A DNA stretch of 64,000 nt from Acidobacteriota bacterium. GTDB lineage: Bacteria; Acidobacteriota; Vicinamibacteria; Vicinamibacterales; UBA2999. Made by a program: the position numbers and the translations under genes. The stretch covers positions 62,001 through 126,000 of the forward strand of contig VFZN01000004.1 of NCBI GenBank assembly GCA_016871195.1. Direction: 5' to 3'. The notes under the pieces were generated by a model. It did not search any database, had not been told where the DNA came from, and saw only the letters and a list, made by a program, of their open reading frames with translations. Shown here one piece after another: positions 47,709 through 49,274 of this stretch; position 1 is the first letter of the stretch, and each line of letters begins with the position of its first letter.

Positions 47709-49274
47709 TCAGCGCCGCGGTGCCGGCAAACGCCGCTGCGCGGCACGCACCTCGTCTTCTGTGAACGCGGCGGCCAGATAGTCTTCGGTCTCGAGCCAGC
47801 GGGCAATCTGCGCGGGCGTGATCTTCAGGGCCTCGAGCCGAGCCGGGTCGAGAAAGATCTGATTGTTGGCCGCGTCACCGTAGTAGGTGACGAGCGCCTT
47901 GCCCCCGGGGTCAAACTGTGTGTGCAGACGGTCGACGATCTGGGGTGTGAAGTAGCGGCGTCCGGGAGGCGGTTCCGACGGCATCCCGTGGTCGGCCGTC
48001 AGGGCCAGCAGGCGTCCGCCGGGACCGGCCTTCCGATCGATGACCTCGAGCAGGCGGGTGACCTGACGATCGAGTTCCTCATAGAGCGCGCGCATCTCGG
48101 GGGCGTCGGGGCCATAGGCGTGGCTCACATAGTCGGGCCCCTTCATGTTGACCAGCAGCAGGTCGGTGATGCCATCGGCACCGAAGGCCTCCTGTGTGGC
48201 CACCGCCACCAGCGCATCGCCCTCGAAGCGCTGATAGAGGCTCGAGGCGCGGAACAGGCCGGGGTTCGAAATGTCGTGCCCCATCCAGCGTCCGCCGGCG
48301 GCTTCCCAGTAGGTCTTGCCATTGATCGCCGACAGGTAGGCGGGCATGCGATAGCACTCAGGGTTGGTTTCCCAGCCGGCATCGCGGGTGGCATAGCTGG
48401 CCGCGAGCACCGGGCGTCCGTTGACCAGGCAGGCGCCCCGGCCGACCAGGCCGGCGGCGGCGCGGATGGCCCCGCCCTGACCGGCGATGATGGCGCGTCC
48501 GTCGGTGAAGAGGTTCCAGCTGTCGGCCAGCGTGAGGGCCATCAACTCGCGCGGGTCGAGTTTTTCGTAGGCGGGCTGCGGCTTGCGGGTTACGCGGTTG
48601 AACAGGTTGTTCGCGGCCAGCCCGTGAAAGCGCGGGTCGGTGCCGGTCCCGATGGTGGCGTGTCCGACACTGGTGAGCGTGGGCAGATAGTTGATGCGCG
48701 TGTTGCCGAACCAGGCGCCTTCGGCCTTCAGGCGCGAGAGGGTGGGCATCACGGCGGCATAGTGTTCGAAGGCGTCGGCGCGCATGCCGTCCATGACCAG
48801 CAGCACGACGACGCGCGGGGCGGCGGCGCCGGGGACGAGCGCATCGCGCAGCACCTGCCCGGTGAAGGTCGGCAGCGCCGGGGCGCCGATGGCGGCGGCC
48901 AGCGTGGCGGCCACGTCCTGCTGGGTGGCCGGTGCGGCAAAGCTGCCGCGGGTCACAAGGCCCTGGCCGTGAAACAGCAGGGGAATATGCGTGTCGTAGT
49001 CCCACGGCGACCCGTGCATGAACCCGTAGAGCGGGTCGCGTTCGGTGATGACCGTGCCTTCCTTCGGGATGACAAACAACTGCCCGCTGCGCCCGGGGAA
49101 ATAGCCGCGGGCGAACATCTCGAGCCAGCGGTCACGGCGGCGCAGGTCTTCGGGCGTGTCCACCTGGCGCTGCATCGTGGTGGTGGCCGGGCGGCTGCTG
49201 GTGCCGGCGCAGCCGGCCAGCAGGGTCACAGTGGCCATCAGCGCAGAAAAATGAAGCAAATGACGGTTCGTCAT
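47709..49274 (-). CDS. alkaline-phosphatase/phosphodiesterase-family lipoprotein with circularly permuted domain order
   Basis: 521 residues; lipobox LLAGC (C22). The segment normally at the C-terminus of PafA-type phosphatases stands first: ARGYFPGRSGQLFVIP (55-70), then HGSPWDYDTHIPLLF (87-101) with the last metal histidines. The usual N-terminal part follows: VVLLVMDGMRADAF (156-169), the nucleophile region PTLTSVGHATIGTG (198-211), KGPDYVSHAYG (378-388) and TADHGM (426-431). It ends at FTEDEVRAAQ, exactly where ordinary members run on into the PGRSG segment. All metal and catalytic motifs are present, so it should hydrolyse phosphate mono- or diesters in the periplasm. The ATG at 49274 starts the signal; a TTG seven codons earlier is less likely. 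Confidence 0.85.
   Translation of the reverse strand: MTNRHLLHFSALMATVTLLAGCAGTSSRPATTTMQRQVDTPEDLRRRDRWLEMFARGYFPGRSGQLFVIPKEGTVITERDPLYGFMHGSPWDYDTHIPLLFHGQGLVTRGSFAAPATQQDVAATLAAAIGAPALPTFTGQVLRDALVPGAAAPRVVVLLVMDGMRADAFEHYAAVMPTLSRLKAEGAWFGNTRINYLPTLTSVGHATIGTGTDPRFHGLAANNLFNRVTRKPQPAYEKLDPRELMALTLADSWNLFTDGRAIIAGQGGAIRAAAGLVGRGACLVNGRPVLAASYATRDAGWETNPECYRMPAYLSAINGKTYWEAAGGRWMGHDISNPGLFRASSLYQRFEGDALVAVATQEAFGADGITDLLLVNMKGPDYVSHAYGPDAPEMRALYEELDRQVTRLLEVIDRKAGPGGRLLALTADHGMPSEPPPGRRYFTPQIVDRLHTQFDPGGKALVTYYGDAANNQIFLDPARLEALKITPAQIARWLETEDYLAAAFTEDEVRAAQRRLPAPRR

Follow-up and report, generated by a model that had tools for sequence, protein, structure and literature searches.

Evidence for a natural circular permutation of a PafA/SPAP-like phosphatase in Acidobacteriota

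The window, by which we mean the whole 64,000-nucleotide stretch of Acidobacteriota DNA that was analysed, carries a genuine open reading frame on its minus strand which runs from an ATG at 49274 to a stop at 47709 and encodes a protein of 521 amino acids (P0002; Table 1). The protein begins with a signal peptide followed by a LAGC lipobox at residues 19–22, as expected of a lipoprotein. A variable linker leads from Cys22 to a segment comprising residues 45–147, after which come the nucleophile segment (VMDGMRAD ... PTLTSVGHATIGTG) and the DxxxH and ADHG metal motifs, and the chain ends in FTEDEVRAAQRRLPAPRR. Present within residues 45–147 are PGRSGQLFVIP, of which PGRSGQLFV occupies residues 60–68, and HGSPWDYDTHIPLLF, while HGSPWDYDTHIP occupies residues 87–98. 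In PafA/SPAP-type phosphatases, PGRSGQLFVIP and HGSPWDYDTHIPLLF, N-terminal here, are the motifs that close the chain. An earlier sequence-only reading of this DNA had placed the PGRSGQLFV segment directly after the lipobox; the segment is indeed N-terminal, but it lies about 39 residues beyond Cys22.

Neighbouring genes, named by eye, are housekeeping or unrelated (prfC, isocitrate dehydrogenase, a DPP4-like peptidase and a creatininase-like gene), and no functional partner was seen among the flanking genes. Isocitrate dehydrogenase, often together with the DPP4-like peptidase and the creatininase-like gene, also lies within a few kb of the permuted gene at six loci containing relatives (L006, L007, L010, L012, L015 and L016). 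These recurrent flanks look like a shared chromosomal location and not an operon.

Table 1. Coordinates of the permuted gene and its parts in the window.
Feature	Position	Strand	Basis
Permuted PafA/SPAP-like phosphatase, whole gene	47709..49274	-	ORF; full-length conservation in L006–L016
Signal peptide and lipobox LAGC, residues 1–22	49209..49274	-	Sequence; lipobox pattern count over 26 relatives
Residues 45–147, former C-terminal segment (RSGQ... HGSPWDYDTHIP...), bears metal-ligand His87	48834..49142	-	Linear-family profile 430–529; PafA 446–516
His87, equivalent of SPAP His491 (Zn ligand)	49014..49016	-	His in 24/24 permuted and 31/31 linear; SPAP ligands from PMC3145672
Short linker, residues 148–151, old C-terminus to old N-terminus	48822..48833	-	Two residues between profile matches (147/150)
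Residues 152–521, old N-terminal and middle portions with nucleophile, metal site and small C-terminal domain; ends in the new C-terminus	47712..48821	-	Profile/phmmer; VIA-align Z 29.6 to 5tj3 24–450
Thr201, nucleophile (PafA T79/SPAP T89)	48672..48674	-	Thr in 24/24 permuted
Ala269-Ile270-Arg271 at the place of PafA K162-D163-R164	48462..48470	-	Lys 0/24 permuted vs 31/31 linear; Arg 23/24 permuted
Lys378, new invariant lysine, 3 residues ahead of Zn ligand Asp381	48141..48143	-	24/24 permuted; Ser/Ala in 31/31 linear
Asp381-x3-His385, Zn ligands	48120..48134	-	Sequence alignment
Asp428-His429, Zn ligands	47988..47993	-	Sequence alignment
Region bounded by Cys282 and Cys307, probable disulfide	48354..48431	-	Cys pair invariant in permuted, absent from linear

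Comparison of the protein with PafA (5tj3) by phmmer gave three stretches in rotated order, with query residues 151–229, 361–431 and 56–129 matching chain residues 16–96, 274–344 and 446–516, respectively, and the matches to SPAP come in the same permuted order. A linear-family profile of 531 positions was built from 31 linear Acidobacteriota homologues and an annotated Spirosoma PafA. Query residues 45–147, 150–237 and 354–511 match profile positions 430–529, 9–97 and 260–427, each with about 70 bits. Profile positions 427 and 430 flank the break, with no overlap, loss or duplication, and the old ends lie two residues apart; by profile order, every part of the linear fold is present once, rotated, in one chain. 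The protein was predicted to end where ordinary members run into the moved segment, and the profile cut agrees with this. When the 26 aligned permuted proteins were rotated to the linear order, the mean best single-domain score against the linear profile rose from 81.4 bits (native) to 158.0 bits, and shuffling the moved segment in the rotated sequences brought it back to 81.4 bits.

The N-terminal segment could instead be a convergent or unrelated domain, with the true C-terminal segment missing, and a single-sequence phmmer match of only about 20 bits would fit such a reading. The profile match, however, reaches 70 bits, and in the reverse direction a profile built from the N-terminal segment of the permuted proteins matches the C-terminus of all 31 linear homologues (27–66 bits) as well as the N-terminus of every intact permuted relative. 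Judged from these sequences, such two-way matching is far beyond chance. Furthermore, His87 is invariant, the segment folds confidently in the predicted model and no second copy was seen in the scanned loci. An unrelated segment is therefore highly improbable, and the segment is best regarded as the true PafA/SPAP one, as had been claimed.

Proteins with the same order, for which a search had been proposed, were readily found. The 26 aligned permuted genes share 40–69% identity with the window protein and a common order, and one of them comes from a single-contig genome of 7.5 Mb. The window itself belongs to a draft genome of 51 contigs, which leaves room for the idea that an assembly or binning artefact at 48820–49000 created the permuted order; since all 26 aligned permuted genes keep that order, even at 40% identity and including the one in the single-contig genome, such an artefact is hardly credible and misassembly was rejected. 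When about 85,000 species genomes were scanned with peptides of the window protein, 11 relatives were obtained (best segments 55–72% identity), all in permuted order. Profile searches within Acidobacteriota found the family in 14 genomes of a phylum-wide sample of 396 and in 24 of 162 genomes of the home order, and they also gave a second, more divergent permuted set (40–48% identity) and one single-contig genome. A tblastn search of plasmids returned eight partial homologues, none with 80% query coverage, and no relative was present among the IMG/VR viral contigs. The restriction to Acidobacteriota is thus only what was seen with profile searches inside the phylum and, for other phyla, with exact peptides, plasmids and viral contigs.

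Some of the records deserve comment. In one genome (G041, loci L030 and L032) the permuted gene is split in two frames, which may reflect a pseudogene or a sequencing frameshift. Two proteins from records titled Cyanobacteria (L013) and Acidimicrobiia (L016) are identical to those of L019 and L021 from the window's own family, and these records are probably mislabelled bins. Weak apgM matches in the relatives were considered and rejected as candidates, being either ordinary iPGMs or matches located at the permuted genes themselves.

In a maximum-likelihood tree of de-permuted sequences, a branch supported at 100/100 separates 24 permuted proteins from 31 linear homologues, and the permuted group sits on a long stem of 1.25 changes per site. 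The monophyly of the permuted clade points to one permutation event. In iPGMs, which belong to another branch of the superfamily, the matching segment is also C-terminal, and therefore the linear order is likely to be the ancestral one. The window's own genome carries a linear paralogue as well, so the permuted protein is an additional enzyme and not a replacement. Neither tandem duplicates nor duplicated or split intermediates were seen in the scanned loci, which, like the long stem, counts against the permutation history favoured below.

Structure prediction with AF2, run on an alignment that held the 26 permuted sequences and no linear ones, gave a model with a mean pLDDT of 90.8 and a pTM of 0.88, in which residues 61–147 are mostly above 90; an earlier model from 12 sequences (pLDDT 67) was set aside. 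Both Foldseek and VIA-align placed PafA and SPAP as the top fold matches, above NPP. Residues 148–517 of the model align with chain residues 24–450 of PafA (5tj3) with a Z score of 29.6 and an rmsd of 3.2 over 353 residues, leaving complementary ends over. This order-dependent alignment ends at the cut; an aligner that keeps chain order is expected to stop at model residue 148 and PafA residue 450 if residues 1–147 correspond to the part of PafA that was moved. For SPAP the Z score is 27.3, and the SPAP/PafA fold is recognised over about 355 residues, the remainder being aligned by sequence only. The model suggests that the chain, although permuted, regains the usual core on folding. Taken with the profile order, the many independent genomes and the single-clade phylogeny, this confident model supports the true circular permutation put forward by the sequence-only reading.

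The two-metal site of SPAP consists of D49, D300, H304, D345, H346 and H491 (PMC3145672). In the permuted proteins the corresponding ligands D162, D381, H385, D428, H429 and H87, together with the nucleophile T201, are invariant (24/24), and hence at the level of sequence both the metal-site residues and the nucleophile of the alkaline phosphatase superfamily are present. The phosphate-binding residues Asn222 and Arg271 are mostly kept (21/24 and 23/24, respectively), while the phosphate-binding lysine (PafA K162/SPAP K171), present in all 31 linear homologues, is replaced by Ala, Thr or Ile in all 24 permuted proteins. The title of PDB entry 5too lists T79, N100, K162 and R164 of PafA, and the SPAP class is recognised by Thr89, Asn110, Lys171 and Arg173 together (PMC3145672); with the lysine in none of 24, the permuted proteins fall outside this signature. 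It had been stated that all catalytic and metal motifs are kept. This holds for the zinc ligands and Thr201, but the equivalent of Lys162 and the Gln beside the first zinc ligand are lost and Lys378 is gained. Loss of the lysine in all members and of the asparagine in three would be compatible with a metal-binding protein that is catalytically weak or non-hydrolytic; the invariant threonine and metal ligands in 24 proteins and the strong overall conservation make this unlikely.

Lys378 is found in all 24 permuted proteins, where the 31 linear homologues have Ser or Ala, so that the clade displays an apparent lysine swap, with a loss at A269 (48468–48470) and a gain at K378 beside a zinc ligand. 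SPAP Gly295 stands where the third-metal ligand Glu322 of the E. coli enzyme is located (PMC3145672). N376, two residues upstream of Lys378, aligns with this Gly295, and it is therefore plausible, from the alignment, that Lys378 points to the spot of the E. coli third-metal ligand. Cys282 (48429–48431) and Cys307 (48354–48356) form a pair that is invariant in the permuted proteins and absent from the linear homologues, a probable clade-specific disulfide.

These changes bear on the substrate. The permuted enzyme may have shifted to another substrate class, such as phosphodiesters as in NPPs, instead of being an ordinary phosphomonoesterase, a possibility to which we give somewhat less than an even chance. 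SPAP Lys171, whose equivalent is lost, reportedly acts with Arg173 and Tyr301 in blocking the diester R' site (PMC3145672). SPAP Gln50 forms a hydrogen bond to Asp300 that is seen in monoesterases and absent in NPP, and it has been tied to monoester preference (PMC3145672); 28 of 31 linear homologues have Gln at this position, where every permuted protein has Ala or Gly. The best Pfam match of the window protein is Phosphodiest. Arguing against the shift, the equivalent of Arg173 is kept in 23 of 24 proteins, the Tyr301 position is still Tyr or Phe, the invariant Lys378 could restore the charge, and the fold matches to PafA and SPAP outrank NPP. NPP phosphodiesterases have an active site without equivalents of either Arg173 or Lys171 (PMC3145672), whereas the permuted proteins lack only the lysine. 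Two monoesterase determinants are lost, one arginine is kept and a new lysine is gained, and since the signature lysine is among the losses, monoesterase activity should not be assumed.

A strict lipobox is present in 17 of the 26 permuted proteins, and in 19 when LDAC and VFAC are counted; the other seven have none. The altered membrane tether that had been proposed for the window protein is borne out by its LAGC, but as 7/26 permuted proteins show no lipobox, it is not inherent to the permutation. Judging by these predicted signals, the former C-terminal segment commonly carries the anchor, but the permutation does not dictate it.

PafA of Elizabethkingia (5tj3, 5too) is the closest solved fold and best family match, with common metal ligands, Thr, Asn and Arg, but it is linear and has Lys162, whereas the permuted protein begins at the equivalent of PafA residue ~446 and lacks the lysine. 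Against the NCBIfam PafA equivalog NF042991 the window protein scores 155.8 bits in three stretches, below the cut-off of 650, and linear Acidobacteriota homologues also stay under it. SPAP/PhoK of Sphingomonas (3q3q, 5xwi, 5xwk) shares the HGSPWD-type segment with the metal ligand His491 and the equivalents of Thr89, Asn110 and Arg173, but is linear and retains Lys171 and Gln50. With NPP-type phosphodiesterases (Xac NPP, ENPPs; PF01663) the protein shares the core Pfam domain (122 bits against a gathering threshold of 23), the metal site, Thr and Asn; unlike them it has the permuted order, the active-site Arg and full PafA/SPAP-type segments. To our knowledge, a natural permutation of a large metalloenzyme with its metal ligands split across the cut is unusual. 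Our literature search, whose coverage did not extend to subscription papers, found no natural circular permutation described in the alkaline phosphatase superfamily. PafA homologues in Acidobacteria have been noted before (PMC8812569), and a text search of that paper gave no mention of permutation. AlgX and PatB1 are circularly permuted SGNH hydrolases (PMC9487903), that is, natural enzymes with permuted motif order, but of an unrelated superfamily. Engineered circular permutants of E. coli alkaline phosphatase have high specific activity according to the title of Kojima et al. (2005; a reference in PMC2395249), which suggests that the superfamily fold can tolerate permutation; as far as that reference goes, these differ in being laboratory constructs from another family and not natural.

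The window protein is therefore very probably an exported two-metal hydrolase of the alkaline phosphatase superfamily with the PafA/SPAP fold, whose gene was circularly permuted once, early in the history of the family in Acidobacteriota. The old C-terminal segment now leads the chain, with some two to four residues connecting it to the old N-terminus, and the new ends are placed at the return from the small inserted domain to the main one. Tandem duplication and truncation may have produced this arrangement, and the export signal in front would be a new acquisition. By homology with SPAP and PafA, the protein would be exported and then fold to the alpha/beta core, where His87 of the new N-terminal segment would complete the zinc site with Asp381 and His385. 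Thr201 would attack phosphorus to give a covalent phospho-threonine intermediate which is hydrolysed by water, as in SPAP. The fold and the metal-ligand residues are well supported, and most likely this is a two-zinc Thr-phosphoenzyme hydrolase of known fold and new topology. More tentatively, Lys378 may take over the charge lost at the PafA K162 position, or the substrate may have changed to a diester or another phospho- or sulfo-ester.

It is possible, although we would not yet wager on it, that the family is a natural permuted branch of the superfamily with a rebuilt active site, in which the lysine is gone and a new invariant one stands by a zinc ligand, and that it forms a catalytic class with its own substrate. 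Some two dozen homologues, the linear paralogue from the window's own genome and the well-studied PafA, SPAP and NPP are at hand for comparison. With them one can test if the order of the chain affects how enzymes of this superfamily fold and catalyse, and if a phosphate-binding lysine is able to change its place. Linear PafA profiles split or under-score the permuted genes, and hence part of the capacity of Acidobacteriota to use organic phosphorus may go uncounted or be misassigned.
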